Virus record (IMG/VR): IMGVR_UViG_3300029813_000061
Span: 1-32,035 of that record
DNA length: 32,035 nt
Source: a virus
Direction: 5' to 3' (one strand)
The translations under genes were made by a program, and so were the position numbers. The notes beneath the pieces were generated by a model. It was not told where the DNA came from, did not search any database, and saw nothing but the letters and a program-made list of their open reading frames with translations. The first letter of the stretch is position 1. The number at the start of each line of letters is the position of its first letter. Positions 1-21,878 of the stretch are shown here, piece after piece.

Positions 1-1577
1 AGCTTAGGAAAATCAAACTCAGGCATCTCTAATTTAGGAATAATTTTTACTATGATTTCTTTATCAGGAATATCGGTTACTGCTTTAATCCCTTCCTCAA
101 TTTCCTTCCAGCGATTCCTGATGTTTTCATATTCGGGAAGAGTGGCAATTGCTTTTAAAACTCTGGCGTAATTTCTACCATGTTTATTGAATATGTCAGT
201 CCATTCTTCAGTGGTTATGATTTCATTGCCAATTAATTCTCTTCTTAGCTTCATGGCCTTTGCCATAGAATTAGTTCCAACAGAAACAGCCCACGCCATC
301 GCTTCTTGTGCTTTAATAAATAAATTTTGCTGCCTACAAACATGGACAGCTATTTCTTTATAAACATCTATATAAAAACTAAATTCTTCCCGTATGGCTG
401 ACATTTGCATAGATATGGCATCGGCAACTTCATTCGTTTTTTTTGTGAATTTTTCCTCAAAATCTTCAGATGTCCGAATCGCTTCTCTCATCGGATCAAT
501 CAAGCCTTCGTAGAAGGCGATTTTCCATTTATCGGTTGCAACTTTGACGGCCTCAATCCAAAAATCCATTGACTCCATTTGTTTCTTAAATGCCTCATCG
601 GTCAATCCCAGAGCCTTTTCCGTAAGTTCAATATCAGAAGCAAAGCCTTCCGCTGCTTCACCCGCTAATCCCATAACAGCAGTCAAGGCTCGGACATTTG
701 GCACAAATATGCTTAAAAGTTTATTACTTCCACCTGTCCCTTTTTCTAATTCCTTTAAAAGTCCTGATAATCCTTTTGCCTTAAGTGCGGATGTTGACCA
801 TTCAAACCCCAAATTTCTTGCTAATATTTGAGCCTCTTCTGTAGGGTTAAGAATCGACATAAGCACTTGACGGAGCTGCATCGTAGCTGTTCGAGAATCA
901 ATTCCTTGCCTGGTTAAGGTCGACATGGCAGCGGCTATTTCGTTGAAGCGCAATCCTAATTTAGAAGCAACAGGCACAACAGTACCTAAAGAACCCGCCA
1001 TTTCTTCAAAAGTCAACTTTCCACGTTTCACGGTCGCAAACATAATATCTGAAACATCCGTGGCATCTTCTGCTTCCATGCCATAGGCGTTGATTACGGT
1101 CGTTATGGCATCAACGGCGGTTTTTGTATCGGTTATACCGGCTTTTGCTGCCTTTGCGGCTACTCCAAGAAATTCAATAGCTTTCGCTGGTTCTATCGAA
1201 GCGGAAAGGACTTGATACATTCCTTTTGCAAGATCGGCTGTATCACCTAAAGTTGGGGACAGTCGGCGAAGCTCATCACGCATTTTACGGGTCTCGCCCC
1301 TGGATATATTGAGCATCGTTGTAACGTTCGCCCACTCTTTTTCAAACTCTCTTCCTGTGCGGAAAACATCCTTAATCTGCCTGACCATCGACCTGACAAC
1401 CAGGGTAGCACCGGCAGTTATCCCTATTCCAGCCGCTATCTGTTTCCACATCTTTGTCAATTTAGGCGATGTTTTGGTTGCAGCTCCCCCCAATCCTCCA
1501 ATACTTTTATCTAATTGCGTTATGGAAACTTGTCCGCTTTTACTGTCCACAACAATTTGAAATTTTATATCAGCCAC
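1..1577 (-). CDS. Phage tail tape measure protein (N-terminal part, runs off left edge)
   Basis: The minus strand is open from a GTG at 1577 to the window edge, giving about 525 residues without a stop. The protein begins MADIKFQIVVDSKSG and then has long helical stretches typical of the TP901-type tape measure core: an N-terminal part with alternating Lys and Gly-rich segments, then TAVDAITTVINAYGM, DVSDIMFATVKRGKLTFEEM and RFNEIAAAMSTLTRQGID, which are the recognisable conserved part of that family. The family sets tail length and helps DNA ejection. It lies directly downstream of the G/GT-like chaperone frames, 1 base after their stop, which is its canonical position. The C-terminal half is outside the window. 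Confidence 0.93.
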   Translation of the reverse strand, partial: MADIKFQIVVDSKSGQVSITQLDKSIGGLGGAATKTSPKLTKMWKQIAAGIGITAGATLVVRSMVRQIKDVFRTGREFEKEWANVTTMLNISRGETRKMRDELRRLSPTLGDTADLAKGMYQVLSASIEPAKAIEFLGVAAKAAKAGITDTKTAVDAITTVINAYGMEAEDATDVSDIMFATVKRGKLTFEEMAGSLGTVVPVASKLGLRFNEIAAAMSTLTRQGIDSRTATMQLRQVLMSILNPTEEAQILARNLGFEWSTSALKAKGLSGLLKELEKGTGGSNKLLSIFVPNVRALTAVMGLAGEAAEGFASDIELTEKALGLTDEAFKKQMESMDFWIEAVKVATDKWKIAFYEGLIDPMREAIRTSEDFEEKFTKKTNEVADAISMQMSAIREEFSFYIDVYKEIAVHVCRQQNLFIKAQEAMAWAVSVGTNSMAKAMKLRRELIGNEIITTEEWTDIFNKHGRNYARVLKAIATLPEYENIRNRWKEIEEGIKAVTDIPDKEIIVKIIPKLEMPEFDFPK

Positions 1578-1578
1578 G

Positions 1579-1911
1579 TTAGTTCTCTTTTGCCTTGCTT
1601 TTTTCCCTTTCTATTGAAAGTTGATGGTTAAAAATTATGTTCATAGACACGAGGAAAATCTTTTTTGTCATTCCTTTTAATTCAAGTTCCCTCATTAGCT
1701 CGCCTATAAGATTCGTTTGAAAAGTAAATGAATTGACATTCTCGTAAAACCAATTGAGGCAAAACACCTCAAACTCAGTCAACTCCTTTTCATATTCTGC
1801 CAAAGAGCAATTAGCGCAGCCGCTTCTATCTTCTCCTATCTCATGCCTGTGCTCTTCAGGCTTCAGCAACAAAGGCCACAGTTCTTTATGCCAGGCGAGA
1901 TAGGTTTCTAA
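1579..1911 (-). CDS. T-like extension of the tail assembly chaperone, read by -1 frameshift
   Basis: This frame continues the upstream 121-residue chaperone in the -1 frame and adds 110 residues, for a predicted 231-residue G-T fusion. It begins LETYLAWHKELWPLLLKPEE and contains a Cys pair (CANC), then amphipathic helices. There is no ATG near its beginning and no ribosome site before its only early candidate start, a TTG at 1872, so independent translation is unlikely. Its position between the tail tube genes and the tape measure is where long-tailed phages keep the GT extension, which binds the tape measure during tail assembly. The role is inferred from position and frame arrangement rather than from recognised sequence similarity. 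Confidence 0.72.
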   Translation of the reverse strand, partial: LETYLAWHKELWPLLLKPEEHRHEIGEDRSGCANCSLAEYEKELTEFEVFCLNWFYENVNSFTFQTNLIGELMRELELKGMTKKIFLVSMNIIFNHQLSIEREKSKAKEN

Positions 1912-2273
1912 TTTTTTACGAAATTCTCTAAATCTTTTGCATACTCTGCAATTGCAGTTCCTAAAAACTTTGTTTTTCCTTTAAGTTTTTCACCCAGTAA
2001 TCGCTTCAATACCGCTTTTTTTATCTGCATATCTTCAATCGGTAGCAATTTCCCTTTCTGTTTGACATCCCATTCTTGGACACAATCCATAGCTATGCCC
2101 AACATGATTTCAGAAAACGGTCTCACTCCTCCGTCTTGATCGAATCCGTCAACGGCTGTGATAGACTCAATCGGGCTAAGCCTTAACTCAATCACGGGGG
2201 GGTCAAGCTCTTTCGTGTCTAACTCGAATTTTATCCACTCCGAGACAGCTTTCCTTTCTTTGAATTCACCCAA
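1908..2273 (-). CDS. Tail assembly chaperone, G-like
   Basis: A 121-residue protein that starts at TTG (2273), five bases after a perfect AGGAGG. It is acidic in the first half and Lys-rich in the second (KKAVLKRLLGEKLKGKTKF) and ends ENFVKN. It follows the tail tube genes and precedes the tape measure, and its last sense codons form a slippery A AAA AAT immediately before the TAG. Together these mark it as the G-like chaperone that coats the tape measure before tube polymerisation. I do not recognise the sequence family itself; the assignment rests on order, size and the shift site. Confidence 0.75.
   Translation of the reverse strand: MGEFKERKAVSEWIKFELDTKELDPPVIELRLSPIESITAVDGFDQDGGVRPFSEIMLGIAMDCVQEWDVKQKGKLLPIEDMQIKKAVLKRLLGEKLKGKTKFLGTAIAEYAKDLENFVKN
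1911..1917 (-). promoter_or_regulatory. Slippery heptamer A AAA AAT for -1 ribosomal frameshifting
   Basis: In the frame of the upstream gene the codons are GTA AAA AAT TAG. The last base of GTA plus the next two codons form an X XXY YYZ heptamer (A AAA AAT), and the stop follows at once. A one-base backward slip gives AAA AAA TTA and enters the frame that runs to 1579. I see the heptamer and the open frame directly; efficiency and any downstream stimulatory structure are not established. Confidence 0.75.
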
Positions 2274-2309: not shown

Positions 2310-3344
2310 TTATGCAAGCATATCCGTATTTCTTTTGTTTTGCACTTTGAGTTGAACGGGCTTTGTAATCCCTGTCATGCCGGTGGGTGCTGCATCAGCC
2401 AGAAGTCCTCTCAGGATAATCTTTGCGGGAATGATGTTCTCATCGGGGTACTCCACATCTTCAATCTTCAACCGTGGGAACTCGAATTTGAAGAAGTAAT
2501 AAGACGTGCCTGTGATAAGTGCACCTGTAAATATCAGGTCGGCTTTCTTCTCATTCTCAGAAGTCCAGTCCCCGAAATAAACATCATTCACGTTGTTCAT
2601 GCGGTTTAATTCCAGCATCAATTTGACTGATACTTTTCCTTCCTCAAGCACTTCGATTATCGTCTGAGAACCAACTTCAGGCGCTCCGGCTTCAGGCTTT
2701 CGCTCAATTTCAAGTGTGAAGTTTTTGAGTCCAATTACATCACCGCCTGCCAGTGCACCCCCACCTTGAGCGTTCATCCTGAATGCCAACTGTTTCGCAA
2801 GAGCACGGTTATGCTTATCAGGAACCGTAACCGCAGCGAGAGTCGTAACGATTATAGAGCTATCCATAACCCTATCGCCTTTAATATCAGCCGTTAACTT
2901 GAGCTTTCCTCCGTCAATCGTGAATGTCAACTTATAGGGTTTCGCACTCGGTACGACATGGATCTTATCGTGTTTCTCTGTGGCATACGTCCCAAATAAC
3001 GTGGCGATCTTATTCGCCAACTCAAGGGTGTGCAACCGTGCGGTTCCTTCGGGTGTAGATGGGACTCCAGCGGTTCCAAATACCTGAGCAATGATGGGAC
3101 CCAAACCCTCATAACGGGCATCGAATTCAAGAGAAAAATCCACGGGGTCATAATCACCTAAATCTAAATCGCTCTCAAATGCGCTCACAGGCGATTCTTC
3201 GGGAATCATAGTGATAGACTGCTTTATGGCTCCTGCATTGAGAGGTAGGATTCCATTTCCAGCCCCATTGACATCAATTTCAGTCCCCCAGGCAGAGGCT
3301 TTCTTCCATGCGCTTACATTTAAACGTTTTTCAATATCTGACAT
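2310..3344 (-). CDS. Phage tail tube protein, short paralog
   Basis: A 344-residue protein beginning MSDIEKRLNVSAWKKASAWG. It is collinear with the 568-residue product just upstream: the same N-terminus, the same core (DPVDFSLEFDARYEGLGPI, FGTYATEKHD, HVVPSAKP, PDKHNRA) and the same C-terminus (YPDENIIPAKIILRGL, GMTGITKPV, NKRNTDML). It lacks both inserted domains of the longer copy. Size, charge pattern and position between the tail completion genes and the chaperone pair fit a major tail tube protein. Two adjacent copies suggest one is the main tube subunit and the other a variant or decorated subunit. Confidence 0.8.
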   Translation of the reverse strand: MSDIEKRLNVSAWKKASAWGTEIDVNGAGNGILPLNAGAIKQSITMIPEESPVSAFESDLDLGDYDPVDFSLEFDARYEGLGPIIAQVFGTAGVPSTPEGTARLHTLELANKIATLFGTYATEKHDKIHVVPSAKPYKLTFTIDGGKLKLTADIKGDRVMDSSIIVTTLAAVTVPDKHNRALAKQLAFRMNAQGGGALAGGDVIGLKNFTLEIERKPEAGAPEVGSQTIIEVLEEGKVSVKLMLELNRMNNVNDVYFGDWTSENEKKADLIFTGALITGTSYYFFKFEFPRLKIEDVEYPDENIIPAKIILRGLLADAAPTGMTGITKPVQLKVQNKRNTDMLA

Positions 3345-3363
3345 TTTTATCTCCTCATTTTAT

Positions 3364-5070
3364 TTATGCTCCAAGCATATCGTTTGTTCTTTTATTCATG
3401 ATACTGAGCCGGACGGGCTTTGTGATTCCCGTCATCCCATACGGGGCGGCATCGGCCTCTAATCCCCTCAGCACTATTTTTGCAGGGATTATATTTTCAT
3501 CAGGATAGTCAACATCTTCGATTACAAGTCTTGGCAGCTCAAATTTGAAATAGTAATCATAAGGACTCGCAATTTCAGCCCCTGTAAAAACTATATCCAG
3601 CTTTTTCTCATTTCCTGCTACCCAATCGGCAAAGTATGCCTTGTTCACATCATCCATGCGGTTGAATTCTAACGTGATCTTCACGGTAGCCTTACCTTCT
3701 TCCAGGGTTTCGATTATCGTTAGCTCTCCACTCTCATGCGCCCCGCCCTCCGGAGTTCTTTCTATTTCTATCGTGAGGCTCTTGACTTTGATTTTATCGC
3801 CATCCGCAAAGGCAGAACCGCTCACGTTGTCGGCTACATAAGAAGCCGAACCCGTGTCATCGGCGGCATCGCTGTAGCCACAAAGGTCTGAGATGTCCGT
3901 GGCTTTATGCGTCCCCGTATTCCAGAGCAAAGAGAAAGTTGAAGATGCGGCTATCGTGAATTTGTGAGTCGACGTGGAGTAGGTTATGGTATAGGTAAAC
4001 GCTCCGGCCTCCTCTAGTTGTTTCTTTATTTCCGTACACAATGCGGTTGACGTATAGCTTCCAAGGTCAAGCGTTGCCGTTAATTCATCCCCATTTTCCT
4101 TAAAATCAATGTGTTTATTCGTAGCGGTAACATCAAACATCACATTCGCCGAAGCATTCATTCTCAAGACAGCTTGATGGAAGAATATCCGGTTATGTTT
4201 ATCGGGAGGATTGACAGAAGCCATAGAGCCCACAACGCCTGAATTATCAATCAAGTTATTTCCCTTAAAGTCTGCGGTAATCTTGAGTTTCCCGGCGTCG
4301 GTTCCAAAAGTCAGTTTATGGGGTTTGGCTGAAGGGACAACGTGAATCCTGTCATGCTTTTCAGTAGCATATGTCCCGAACAGCCCGCTTACCTTGGCCT
4401 TCAAATCCAGTACATGAAGATAAGCCGCTGTAGCTCCCTGCTGTGTCGGCCCGCCCTTCGGAAAATGGAACCGGGTATAATCAGCCGTATAGGTCGATGC
4501 CCCGGTGTCATTTGCCGCATCATTAAATCCGCACATATCGGAAATATCTGTTGCCTTGTGCGTCCCGGTATCCCATCGAAGAGTAAAATTCGAGGGTGCT
4601 GCTATTGTAAATTTCCGGGTCGCCTTGGAATGCGTGACTGTATAGGTCAATGCCCCCGCTGCATCCAACTGAGTTTTCATCTCCGCACATAAAGCATCTG
4701 CGGTGTATGTTCCGAGCGTCAAGGTTGCTGTAAGCTCTGCGGCGCCTTCGTCAAAGTCGATGTATTTACAGGAATCCGCCACAACGAACCTCTCATCTGT
4801 TCCGAAGACCTGAGCCATAATCGACCCCAATCCCTCATATCTCCCGTCAAACTCAAGGGAGAAGTCTACCGGGTCTTTATGTGGAATATCCAGGTCGGAC
4901 TCCATAGCACTAACCGCCGATTCTTCCTCTACCGGAGGAATTGACAGTTTTAATGCCCCTGCATTCAAGGGGAGGATTCCGAGAGTGGCAACATTTACGT
5001 CAACCTCTGTCCCCCAGACAAGAGCGTTTTTCCAGGCTGACTTATTCAGTCTTTTTTCTATATCTGACAT
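3364..5070 (-). CDS. Phage tail tube protein, long paralog with two inserted repeat domains
   Basis: A 568-residue paralog of the downstream 344-residue protein. The scaffold is interrupted at residues about 94-200 and 311-418 by two mutually homologous domains of about 105 residues. Each reads approximately IDF-E-ELTATL-LG-YT, then a helix (LC-E-K-QL--AGA), then TYT, KFTIAA, W-TGTHKATDISD-CG and DDTG-ASY-AD. Repeats with this pattern are familiar from phage structural and adhesin-like proteins. In the short paralog these positions hold only brief linkers after VFGT and RMNA. I infer surface-exposed decorations on a tube subunit. Starts ATG 5070; its first 29 bases overlap the end of the preceding small gene. 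Confidence 0.8.
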   Translation of the reverse strand: MSDIEKRLNKSAWKNALVWGTEVDVNVATLGILPLNAGALKLSIPPVEEESAVSAMESDLDIPHKDPVDFSLEFDGRYEGLGSIMAQVFGTDERFVVADSCKYIDFDEGAAELTATLTLGTYTADALCAEMKTQLDAAGALTYTVTHSKATRKFTIAAPSNFTLRWDTGTHKATDISDMCGFNDAANDTGASTYTADYTRFHFPKGGPTQQGATAAYLHVLDLKAKVSGLFGTYATEKHDRIHVVPSAKPHKLTFGTDAGKLKITADFKGNNLIDNSGVVGSMASVNPPDKHNRIFFHQAVLRMNASANVMFDVTATNKHIDFKENGDELTATLDLGSYTSTALCTEIKKQLEEAGAFTYTITYSTSTHKFTIAASSTFSLLWNTGTHKATDISDLCGYSDAADDTGSASYVADNVSGSAFADGDKIKVKSLTIEIERTPEGGAHESGELTIIETLEEGKATVKITLEFNRMDDVNKAYFADWVAGNEKKLDIVFTGAEIASPYDYYFKFELPRLVIEDVDYPDENIIPAKIVLRGLEADAAPYGMTGITKPVRLSIMNKRTNDMLGA

Positions 5071-5248
5071 TTGCTTTCACCTTTTTTGTGGATTTTTTTA
5101 TCACAGGCTTGACCTTTTCAATCCAGCCATCCCTTTCCCAGTTAGCAATAATGTCGGGATGAATCCCCTTCTCTCCAGGGTTGAAGACCTCACCTATTTG
5201 TATCAAGCCATAGGCTGTGTATTGACTTTCTCGTATCCATTTATACAT
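5042..5248 (-). CDS. Small basic protein of the head-tail region, unknown function
   Basis: A 68-residue protein with ATG at 5248 behind GAGGTGAGCT. It contains a compact segment (GEVFNPGEKGIHPDIIANWE, then RDGWIEKV) followed by a Lys/Arg-rich tail. Its stop lies 29 bases inside the next gene, the long tail tube protein, so the two are probably translationally coupled. Small proteins are common between the tail completion and tail tube genes of siphoviruses, but I do not recognise the family. Confidence 0.7.
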   Translation of the reverse strand: MYKWIRESQYTAYGLIQIGEVFNPGEKGIHPDIIANWERDGWIEKVKPVIKKSTKKVKANVRYRKKTE

Positions 5249-5260
5249 AGCTCACCTCGT

Positions 5261-5743
5261 TTATAATTCATCAAAATCGCCGGTTGTTATGACCTTGACC
5301 CTTTGGTCAAAGAATCCAAAACCAACGACTGATAAATATCCGTTATCGGTTTCCGGCGGCTCATCAAACGTTGTCTGTACCCCCAGGGCTCCGAGAGTTC
5401 CTGCAGCACCGCTTTTGGAATCATCGTTTATAGCCTTCCTGATATCTCTTATTGCCTTTGTGAGCGGCGTAACAGTATCTGAATTGTCCTTGACATATCC
5501 TTTCACGTTCAAATACCAGTGTTCATCATAAAGGTCTGTCCCTGCGAATTCTATAGAACCCCCGCTGTCCCTGAAGACCATATACAGGGGTTTACTTGCC
5601 TTCACTTTTGCCTCTTCCCAGTGAACAAATTTCTTTGCCACATCATAGGGGGTAAAGAAAAAATCATCCCCTGCGGTTATCGCCTTTAAGACAGCGATAA
5701 TCCTGTCAATGATTTTCAGTGATAGAGGATTTACAGGTGCCAT
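5261..5743 (-). CDS. Probable tail terminator / tail completion protein
   Basis: 160 residues, ATG at 5743 after a GAGG. Starts with a helix (LSLKIIDRIIAVLKAI), then mixed alpha/beta with VKGYVKDNSDTVTPLTKAIR and a glycine-rich beta C-terminus (GYLSVVGFGFFDQRVKV). The size and the order connector, HK97 gp10-like, this gene, tail tube match the tail terminator (U-like) slot. The first helix followed by a beta sheet containing an 'Y-V-G--K' strand is consistent with that fold. Function is by synteny; sequence recognition is weak. Confidence 0.65.
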   Translation of the reverse strand: MAPVNPLSLKIIDRIIAVLKAITAGDDFFFTPYDVAKKFVHWEEAKVKASKPLYMVFRDSGGSIEFAGTDLYDEHWYLNVKGYVKDNSDTVTPLTKAIRDIRKAINDDSKSGAAGTLGALGVQTTFDEPPETDNGYLSVVGFGFFDQRVKVITTGDFDEL

Positions 5744-5744
5744 T

Positions 5745-6320
5745 TTATAATGACCTCGATTTCAGAGTTTTTAATATCTCTTCAGCTTTCATTGCCTGAT
5801 AAAGCTGAAGCTTCATTTGGTCTATTGAAGTCTCAAGCCAATGACGGGCAGGGATATCAACCTCTCTCTTCAACACAAAGAGAGGCTTCAAACCCTTCTT
5901 GCCTTTTCTTTCTACCAGGAGAACATTCCCTTTCTTGGACTTGATTATAAAAGCGTCTGGAAAATTGGCCGCCCTACCCTGGACCCCAGGTAACGGAATT
6001 GTAAGCATCTTGGCTTTAGCTCGAACCTTCCCGCCCTTTTCCTGGATTCGGGCATATTTTACGGGCTTGCGTCTAAACACACCTGAACCGATTATGGAAA
6101 TGATCATCTCACCTTTCATATAAACTTTACTTGCGATGCTTCGGGCCAGCTTTCCCGTCCGCCCTTTTCTCGATTTGAATATTACTCTCATGATATTCGT
6201 TTTCGTCTTTTTCTCAGTCTTACTTGTCCAGCCCTGCATATTAAACAGAATCGCCTTGTCCAGCTTCCTATATCTCTTCAGCCTCTTCCGGGCCTTGCTT
6301 GTGTCAACCGTCATTTTCAT
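5745..6320 (-). CDS. HK97 gp10-like / virion morphogenesis protein (tail completion)
   Basis: 191 residues, very basic. Diagnostic segments are KGRTGKLARSIASKV (TG-L--SI motif), PVKYARIQEKGGKV (YA---E-GG motif) and the C-terminal IPARHWLETSI (I-AR-FL--A motif); these together mark the gp10/gpG-type head-tail joining proteins. Such proteins sit at the head-tail interface and are needed to complete the tail. It overlaps the connector gene upstream by four bases (ATGA), so the two are co-translated. It is longer than typical members (about 120-150 residues) because of an extended Lys/Arg-rich middle. Confidence 0.8.
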   Translation of the reverse strand: MKMTVDTSKARKRLKRYRKLDKAILFNMQGWTSKTEKKTKTNIMRVIFKSRKGRTGKLARSIASKVYMKGEMIISIIGSGVFRRKPVKYARIQEKGGKVRAKAKMLTIPLPGVQGRAANFPDAFIIKSKKGNVLLVERKGKKGLKPLFVLKREVDIPARHWLETSIDQMKLQLYQAMKAEEILKTLKSRSL

Positions 6321-7120
6321 AGTCTTTTATACCTATCGAGAGTAGCCTTCACATCCTCTAAAAGCTCATTGACTTCTATGCTGATTGAGCCCCCATCGAA
6401 ACTCCGGCTTGTCTCGCCCCATTCCTGCTTATCCTGTCTCTTCCAATCTTTAGCCACTTGCTTCATACAGGCCAATTCTAAATCCTTCGGGATATTAATA
6501 ATCGCATCAGGCTCATTGACGGTCATGACATTGGAATTGCCGCCTGAGATATCAATAGTCTCATCATCTGCGAATTCCCCCGTTATGGATACGAACTCGA
6601 CATAGCCGACAGCGTCTTCACCCGCCCATGTTCCGCTCGTCACTTTGATTGCCGCAACTTCACCTGAACCGGAAGCACTTGTCAGGGTTTTCCCAATGGC
6701 CGGCTCTTCCGAGCCTGAGTCAAAATGACGGGATTCAACAATTTGAAATCCAGCTTTATAATCCGTGAGTTTTATTCCCTTTCTGTTCTTAGTCCAATTT
6801 CCATTAACTTTATACAAATAACCTTCTTCAGCATAAAGAATGTAATCCTCATCTGTGCCTTCGGTTAAGGCAATATCGTCTTCTGTTACCGTAACCGCAG
6901 CCACAGGCCAATCGGGAAGCTGAAACTCCTTCTCTCCATTACCATCTAAATAAAGCGTCGCATAGATCTGCTCTTTCAGGTTGCGATCCGTATATGTGTC
7001 AAACAGGGAAGAGATAGCATTAATCAGCATTTCGAGAATGGCATCAACGGTCGTTCCCGCTTCATCAATATAGACCTTTATCCTTGTGAGCGTAACAAGT
7101 GCGTTATTTTCAAGAGCCAT
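6317..7120 (-). CDS. Head-tail connector protein (gp6-like) with an internal domain insertion
   Basis: 267 residues. N-terminal helices (LVTLTRIKVYIDEAG, ILEMLINAISSLFDTYTDR) and C-terminal helices (IPKDLELACMKQVAKDWKR, then LEDVKATLDRYKRL) match the helical bundle of phage adaptor/connector proteins that attach beneath the portal. Between about residues 131 and 208 a Gly/Thr-rich beta segment is inserted (KTLTSASGSGEVAAIKVTSG ... NSNVMTV), which explains the unusual length; the family is normally about 100-200 residues. The helical frame is recognisable and the insert is an addition to it. Confidence 0.78.
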   Translation of the reverse strand: MALENNALVTLTRIKVYIDEAGTTVDAILEMLINAISSLFDTYTDRNLKEQIYATLYLDGNGEKEFQLPDWPVAAVTVTEDDIALTEGTDEDYILYAEEGYLYKVNGNWTKNRKGIKLTDYKAGFQIVESRHFDSGSEEPAIGKTLTSASGSGEVAAIKVTSGTWAGEDAVGYVEFVSITGEFADDETIDISGGNSNVMTVNEPDAIINIPKDLELACMKQVAKDWKRQDKQEWGETSRSFDGGSISIEVNELLEDVKATLDRYKRL

Positions 7121-20616: not shown

Positions 20617-21099
20617 TTATTCCTTTAAAAATATTTCACTTTCTGTGATATTTTCAATATTGCAAGAATCAAACCACCAATATTTAATTAAATCCTTCTT
20701 TAAAATAAGAATTCCTTTATTTTTATTGTCAGATTTAAAATAATTTATTATTGGATATTCATGTGCTGATATATGTAATCTCATATATTGAACTCTATAA
20801 ATAGCGACATTATTAATAAAGCTATGTATGCAAATTTGACTTTCACATATACTTATTCCACTTGGTTTTTGAGGAGAGCCTTGATAAATCTCTATACAAA
20901 TATTTGGACTATTTGAATATTTATCCTCATTTTTTATTTGAATAACATAAGGTATTTTATTTTTTATTACCCATAAATCTCCATACGCTCTAGTATCTAA
21001 TAAATCTCCAAGCCATCCTTCATTGCGAAATATGTTCAATATTTCCTCTTCCTTTTTTTGACCGATTATAAGATCGTTTTCAAAGCTTTCTCTATTCAT
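20617..21099 (-). CDS. PD-(D/E)XK-like nuclease beside a DNA methyltransferase
   Basis: 160 residues, DNA very AT-rich. QKKEEEILNIFRNEGWLGDL is the leading helix; AYGDLWVIKNKIPYVIQIKN then gives Asp41 and the Q-x-K (Gln54, Lys56) variant of the (D/E)xK active site, as in Hjc-like resolvases or small restriction-like nucleases. The C-terminal half holds several Cys and aromatic residues without a recognised domain. Its start overlaps the methyltransferase stop by four bases, so the two are co-translated. It could be a restriction-like partner or a recombination nuclease; I cannot decide. Confidence 0.6.
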   Translation of the reverse strand: MNRESFENDLIIGQKKEEEILNIFRNEGWLGDLLDTRAYGDLWVIKNKIPYVIQIKNEDKYSNSPNICIEIYQGSPQKPSGISICESQICIHSFINNVAIYRVQYMRLHISAHEYPIINYFKSDNKNKGILILKKDLIKYWWFDSCNIENITESEIFLKE

Positions 21100-21878
21100 T
21101 CTATTCGTTGATATATGTCTCCAATATTCGAGAATATCTCTATAAATCTTTTAATGTTTTTTCCTAGATAAATAATCATTGACGGGAAGGGCGCAGAGTT
21201 TTCACTTTCTCCGAATTTCAAACGCCCCCAAATAAAACAACGTGGATAATTCTTCATCCTTTGATACCACTTCGTATCTGTCCTTGACGGGGTTAATGCA
21301 ATTGCTTCTTGAGTATTTTCTTTTTCAAATTGTTCACAAAGATAATTAATCCAATTTTTTATTTCACCTCCATATGGAGGATTCATATAGATTTTTCCAT
21401 ACCATTCTTTTGAAAGAGCATCCTCTTCTTTTATGAAATGATTTTTTGCTGGAACATTTGGAAAATCAGGATTTGAGCATGGATCTAAATCAATCTCATT
21501 TAACAATTGAATTGTCTTTTCTATGATTAATTGAGGAGTAGTCCATTCAGAAGATTCGCTTAAAAAATGAACTGATTGATGTTCAGGTAATAAATGTCGT
21601 TTAATATATTCCCAGTTATGTTTGTTGTCGAACGACGACAATTCAGGATATTTTCTTGTAAATTGCACACATCGATATAATTCTTGTCGACTAATATCTA
21701 AATCTTTAGCAAGGCTTGCAATTGTTTTCTTGCCATATTCAGCTCTTTCAAATTTTAATTCATCTTCTATGATACGTTTTCCTATAGCATGCTTAGCTCG
21801 TACTATTCCTTCAAAATTCAAAAGCTTTAAATCAAAAATAAGTTTTTCATACCAGTCATATTGAAGAGCTATTTTCAT
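21096..21878 (-). CDS. Phage DNA N6-adenine methyltransferase with DUF1016-like N-terminus
   Basis: 260 residues. Residues 111-240 form a phage Dam-type methyltransferase: EWTTPQLIIEKTIQLL, LDPCSN (131-136), the catalytic NPPY (166-169, IYMNPPYGGEIKNW), ALTPSRTDTKWYQ and APFPSMIIYLG. Residues 30-80 resemble the N-terminal domain of DUF1016 proteins (HAIGKRIIEDE, RAEYGKKTIASLAKDL, ELYRCVQFTRKYP). It would methylate adenine in DNA, protecting phage DNA or controlling expression. The start follows a structured leader (21891-21947); the stop overlaps the nuclease gene. Confidence 0.87.
   Translation of the reverse strand: MKIALQYDWYEKLIFDLKLLNFEGIVRAKHAIGKRIIEDELKFERAEYGKKTIASLAKDLDISRQELYRCVQFTRKYPELSSFDNKHNWEYIKRHLLPEHQSVHFLSESSEWTTPQLIIEKTIQLLNEIDLDPCSNPDFPNVPAKNHFIKEEDALSKEWYGKIYMNPPYGGEIKNWINYLCEQFEKENTQEAIALTPSRTDTKWYQRMKNYPRCFIWGRLKFGESENSAPFPSMIIYLGKNIKRFIEIFSNIGDIYQRIE

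Follow-up and report, generated by a model that had tools for sequence, protein, structure and literature searches.

The DNA studied here, called the window below, is the whole IMG/VR record IMGVR_UViG_3300029813_000061 (32,035 bases), which is classed as linear and is possibly a fragment; its source is a virus of bacteria or archaea. The minus strand carries a siphovirus virion block with the genes of a capsid protein (phrog_10), a head-tail adaptor (phrog_442), a neck protein and a probable tail terminator, followed by two tandem tail tube genes, LONG and SHORT, then by two small open reading frames (ORFs) and the beginning of what is probably a tape measure gene (Table 1). Between tube and tape measure genes, a pair of chaperones with a programmed frameshift is expected. 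The small ORFs found there (window 1579-2273, minus strand) encode 121 and 97 residues, and the first of them had no family match in Pfam and PHROG-type profile searches. Elsewhere in the window, a minus-strand ORF at 21096-21878 resembles by eye a phage DNA adenine methyltransferase.

Table 1. Tail tube genes of the window, their inserts and adjacent features
Feature	Position	Strand	Basis
Probable tape measure gene, start, cut by the record end	3..1577	-	Open-ended ORF of 525 aa; assigned by position and size
ORF of 121 aa in the position of a tail assembly chaperone	1908..2273	-	Position only
SHORT, tail tube gene of 344 aa with the insert-free scaffold	2310..3344	-	ORF; PF18906; collinear with LONG
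Shine-Dalgarno GAGGAG of SHORT, strong	3351..3356	-	Predicted anti-SD pairing -9.4 kcal/mol
LONG, tail tube gene of 568 aa with two inserts	3364..5070	-	ORF; AlphaFold2 model; VIA-align Z 26.8 vs 8ed0; purifying selection vs L005
Insert 2, LONG residues 311-417	3820..4140	-	In tube domain 2, first strand-strand loop; pLDDT 98.2 when modelled alone
Insert 1, LONG residues 94-200	4471..4791	-	Follows the helix of tube domain 1 directly
Shine-Dalgarno AGGTGA of LONG, weak	5077..5082	-	Predicted anti-SD pairing -4.3 kcal/mol
Probable tail terminator, directly upstream of LONG	5261..5743	-	Weak PHROG tail-terminator matches; 80.6% identical in L005

An earlier note on this sequence had proposed that a single tube subunit was duplicated and that one copy was decorated twice with the same module. 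Both ORFs lie where it had placed them (5070-3364 and 3344-2310, minus strand), and global alignment confirmed that their products are collinear from the first to the last residue, with scaffold blocks 75, 60 and 65% identical and two large insertions in LONG as the only large gaps. The limits of these insertions, residues 94-200 and 311-417, are within one residue of those reported before (94-200 and 311-418), and the insertion points correspond, as claimed, to short loops of SHORT, at about residues 91-104 and 193-197. The inserts are indeed homologous to each other, far beyond chance (protein identity 61%; DNA identity 68%, with 217 matches in 317 aligned bases). The same pair of 568 and 344 residues was found in a second virus, L005, with 83% and 85% identity to the window, so that the arrangement is not an assembly artefact.

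The identification of these proteins as tail tubes is supported by fold, family and the gene order of terminator, tubes, small ORFs and tape measure. SHORT matches Pfam PF18906 (Phage_tube_2) with E 4.2e-6 and 27.0 bits, just at the curated cut-off of 27; among relatives, L040 B gave 38.9 bits and SHORT of L028 gave 27.6 bits. In the Pfam search LONG had no PF18906 match, and its matches to AglB_L1 and hGDE_N fell below cut-offs and were taken as chance. A PDB sequence search gave no match for the whole of LONG or of SHORT, and tblastn against GenBank phages found no relative.

Structure prediction with AlphaFold2 was carried out for LONG, using an alignment of 30 proteins from the window and related loci. 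The model has a mean pLDDT of 74, lower in loops, and its secondary structure forms two repeats of the tube fold. Superposition by VIA-align gave Z 26.8 with the P74-26 tail tube (8ed0_A; 301 residues, 2.8 A, model residues 4-561), Z 25.2 with SH-Ab15497 and Z 20-23 with pb6 of T5 and DT57C; chain 9ioz_A of the T5 tip complex gave Z 19.6. According to this model, LONG and SHORT are paralogs with two tandem tube beta-sandwich domains of the P74-26/T5 type, and the full scaffold aligns with the self-assembling tube protein of P74-26 (8ED0) and with T5 pb6, where each subunit also has two fused tube domains. T5 pb6 carries an Ig-like domain; unlike LONG, it is without internal inserts of the module's fold. 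The tube protein of P74-26 is close in size to SHORT (348 and 344 residues) and builds trimeric rings with a smooth exterior from one kind of subunit (PMC10034513), whereas the window has tandem genes for two subunits, and one of these contains internal modules.

In the model of LONG, the two inserts occupy non-equivalent loops. It was tested whether they belong to the normal tube fold, and they do not, being absent from the SHORT, single and L040 copies of the relatives. The single insert of L028-L037 stands at the same site as insert 1, and that of L021, L022 and L026 at a similar position.

The insert of about 107 residues is, as judged from profile searches and modelling, an independent domain, and it is unrecognised by Pfam, PHROGs and NCBIfam at their cut-offs. 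Insert 2 was modelled alone with 41 relatives and contains a 15-residue helix. No Ig or FN3 profile matched the window module, and matches among the 41 members were at chance level; an Ig-type fold is also absent from the list of structural matches, an absence compatible with an Ig fold. The best Pfam pointers to adhesin-like domains were sub-threshold (pAdhesive_6, E 0.008 at best, 6 of the 41 members).

The closest solved structures belong to giant viruses of algae. The module superposes on the EhV-201 penton (8RBS chain K) with Z 14.2 over 102 residues (1.8 A, 22% identity) and on P1v1 of PBCV-1 (8H2I, 8h2i_bG) with Z 11.5, both well above all other fold matches. The same insertion domain of P1v1, and only P1v1, was the top PDB sequence-profile match (hmmsearch E 0.0016), and the best-scoring named predicted structures in BFVD were giant-virus proteins. 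No giant-virus Pfam family occurred among module matches up to E 1, and no paper was found on DUF5901, named by two of the giant-virus BFVD matches. Thus the penton insertion domains have the same fold over the whole module and are likewise surface insertions in a virion protein, but they belong to eukaryotic viruses, sit on a single jelly-roll penton scaffold and show marginal sequence similarity to the module. Weaker fold matches (adenovirus and mavirus pentons, FliD and sheath; Z 4-8) were treated as being at the level of a common fold.

The module was found in 47 other IMG/VR contigs, in tail tubes, tail-tip proteins, head-tail adaptors and fibres, and all its carriers are virion parts. 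Tail tubes with one insert occur in L021, L022 and L026, and L067-L074 encode a protein of 506-507 residues with the module near residues 243-349, that of L073 matching Phage_tube_2. Other carriers are phrog_8610 tail-tip proteins of about 365 residues, fn3-containing tip proteins, phrog_442 head-tail adaptors and a fibre-like protein of 1,020 residues with three module copies in a row (L020:4431-7493). In L005, a 251-residue phrog_8610 protein without the module lies directly after the tape measure gene. Some phages have the module in two virion proteins, namely adaptor and tube (L033, L036, L055, L061) or tube and tip (L053, L054). In a genome scan, for which the wide alignment of the module proved too diverse, a narrow alignment revealed two contigs of bacterial metagenome-assembled genomes, L049 and L050, with module-bearing tip proteins. 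These are binned as Aminicenantes and Candidatus Zixiibacteriota, a weak hint to hosts; a single plain tube gene, distantly related, is present in L050 as well.

Close relatives differ much more in inserts than in scaffolds: the scaffolds of L029 and L037 are 94% identical and their inserts 62%, with 92% and 60% for L030 and L035. In L034 and L035, the insert DNA is 96% identical against 88-90% in the flanks. Comparisons of this kind indicate that inserts are exchanged between close relatives, moving separately from scaffolds. Given also its spread over several kinds of virion protein, the module is a mobile domain, swapped among many phage structural proteins.

Two lineages with paired tube genes were recognised. 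In lineage A (the window and L005), LONG with two inserts precedes SHORT; in lineage B, SHORT precedes LONG with one insert. The latter comprises 15 contigs (L028-L031, L033-L037, L053-L057, L061), some of them near-identical to each other, with L032 and L052 as additional members cut by contig ends. Further relatives have two plain copies (L040) or one plain copy (L038, L039, L051). The scaffold tree supports duplication of one tube subunit with decoration of one of the copies: in it, the LONGs of the window and L005 form the sister group of their SHORTs (support 100/99 without and 95/73 with the distant outgroup L050) and single-copy rows adjoin both lineages. The LONGs of the two lineages are not one clade: the AU test, for which the groups were named after the arrangement had been seen, rejected a single ancestral LONG common to all phages (p 1e-39 and 3e-5). 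It appears from these trees that the pair arose twice, with opposite gene order and with one copy decorated each time. Gene conversion between paralogs could imitate two duplications, but the reversed gene order and the single-copy relatives on both sides argue against it.

As to double decoration with the same module, the presence of two homologous modules stands. A single clade of the window's two inserts was not rejected (AU p 0.37), and they may have arisen by duplication inside the gene or have been acquired separately. A single clade of all tube inserts was disfavoured (AU p 0.019).

Between the window and L005, the tubes (83-85%) and the terminator (80.6%) are far closer than the neck protein (30%), the 121-residue ORF (43%) and the N terminus of the tape measure protein (47%, compared with the N terminus of a 779-residue ORF in L005); for this reason, the terminator and the tube pair (window 2310-5743, L005:5106-8761) were probably transferred as one cassette.

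Rough omega values for the window against L005, with dS near saturation, were about 0.05 for insert 1, 0.01 for insert 2, below 0.04 for the scaffold of LONG and 0.03 for SHORT, which points to strong purifying selection on the inserts and both scaffolds. Selection of this strength on both genes, which are also found intact and side by side, in one operon order, in 17 contigs (counting the window), makes it very improbable, in our opinion, that the two genes are alternatives for different conditions or hosts, or that one of them is a decaying duplicate, even if the single-copy phages L038, L039 and L051 show that one tube gene is enough in some cases.

Predicted pairing with the anti-Shine-Dalgarno sequence is weak for LONG (-4.3, and -6.8 in L005) and strong for SHORT (-9.4, and -10.8 in L005), as it is for the capsid gene (-9.3), and this suggests that LONG would be the minor product in lineage A. 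In lineage B, strong Shine-Dalgarno sequences are predicted for both copies. There, SHORT and LONG show 23 fixed differences; the single-copy L051 agrees with LONG at 16 of these and with SHORT at 4, and the relative-rate test gave p down to 1e-5 with L038 and a weaker or absent effect with L051; on these grounds the plain SHORT is taken as the derived copy of lineage B. No such difference was found in lineage A. Because of this and of the different Shine-Dalgarno patterns, the roles of plain and decorated copies may differ between the lineages.

Summarizing these data, we give about equal weight to belief and doubt in the reading that we prefer, in which tandem tube paralogs of the P74-26/T5 type, LONG with its two mobile modules and plain SHORT, are both built into the tail shaft and the modules act as outward adhesins. 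Two fused tube domains per subunit would give trimeric, pseudo-hexameric rings; LONG would bring into them two copies of the mobile surface module, in two loops, and both paralogs would co-assemble in the shaft. The modules would then stud the tube exterior as low-affinity, high-copy adhesins, presumably for glycans of the host surface or the environment, and the ratio of plain to decorated subunits, which depends on a frameshift in SPP1, would be set here by two genes, each with its own ribosome binding site. We infer the outward orientation from the presence of the module in other exposed virion parts and from a volume estimate: a module takes roughly 14,300 A3, with up to six per ring, against a lumen of about 60,400 A3 per ring (lumen diameter as given in PMC10034513, assuming rings about 38 A high), so that the modules cannot all sit inside. 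By analogy with the 936 phages (PMC6669499) and SPP1 (PMC8718954), the modules are most likely adhesin-like.

Instead of binding hosts, the modules might be structural braces between neighbouring rings, making the tube stiffer or more stable. Insertion domain I of PBCV-1 crosslinks capsomers (PMC9617893), and a domain of the E217 sheath protein is weakly like the module (Z 7.9). Such a role is nevertheless improbable for a module that occurs with different neighbours in tips, fibres and adaptors, is missing from many related tubes and has alleles that are exchanged among close relatives whose scaffolds are almost identical.

More consideration is due to a quite possible, though tentatively held, explanation in which one paralog forms a specialised ring at the tube end (a tip initiator, a collar or a neck ring) and the other alone builds the shaft. 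T5 p140 is likewise a duplicated two-domain tube protein beside the main one; it forms one trimeric undecorated tip ring for attachment of the fibre collar (PMC10038345). P1v1 of PBCV-1, a penton paralog, marks the unique vertex with its insertion domain and holds the spike (PMC9617893). L040 keeps a second paralog without an insert, so that the duplicate has value beyond carrying the module, and the derived state of plain SHORT in lineage B counts against the preferred reading and agrees no less well with a specialised plain ring. However, the single tube gene of L038, L039 and L051 makes a second type of ring dispensable, and both lineage B copies have strong ribosome binding sites. Moreover, p140 is encoded in the baseplate gene region and is only 9% identical to pb6, whereas the window paralogs are adjacent and about 65% identical (60-75% by block, including the N terminus), being alike also in the regions taken to match Loop1 and Loop2 of P74-26.

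Tail tubes are usually described as built from one repeated subunit, at most with a fused domain at the tail end. The earlier suggestion that a tail of plain and decorated subunits would be unusual needs qualifying, as SPP1 has gp17.1 and its extended form in one tail at 3:1 (PMC8718954). In the lactococcal 936 phages, Dit, the major tail protein and the neck structure contain carbohydrate-binding modules, for some of which host binding was demonstrated (PMC6669499). The likeness to our locus thus lies in plain and decorated tube subunits (SPP1) and in modules common to tube, Dit and neck (936). In these phages, though, decoration comes from frameshift read-through of a single gene, which adds an FN3 or carbohydrate-binding domain at the C terminus, whereas here the decorated form is encoded by a second complete ORF with its own ribosome binding site and has internal insertions of a different fold. 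A two-form tail protein of the SPP1 type was therefore rejected for the window.

Mixed plain and decorated tubes, Ig-like decorations and duplicated tube rings are already known kinds, as is domain mosaicism in phage proteins (PMC10684548). A search of open-access papers gave nothing relevant on tandem or paralogous tube proteins. Within the literature and libraries searched, the two-gene route repeated in two lineages, the internal rather than terminal insertion and the unnamed module are new. The apparently separate evolution of the same arrangement in related phages suggests that a module on part of the tail pays off. The two lineages are a natural replicate, and together with single, plain-pair, once-decorated and twice-decorated relatives they make the purpose of tail decoration testable. 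The module itself recurs from neck to tip, has escaped the models of the main family libraries and finds its nearest solved fold in giant-virus pentons.

A broader and rather unlikely picture may be drawn, in which the module would represent a family of virion-surface domains common by descent to tailed phages and giant eukaryotic viruses. It would repeatedly accompany duplication of tube genes and give heteropolymer tails of plain and decorated subunits, with the ratio set by translation and the decoration swapped like a cassette.

A different insert of about 75 residues (FDSGSEEPAIGKTLTSASGSG...VMTVNEP) is present in the head-tail adaptors of the window (6317-7120, minus strand) and L005 (L005:3801-4565). 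It is nearly identical in both, with much more diverged adaptor flanks, and is probably another mobile virion module.
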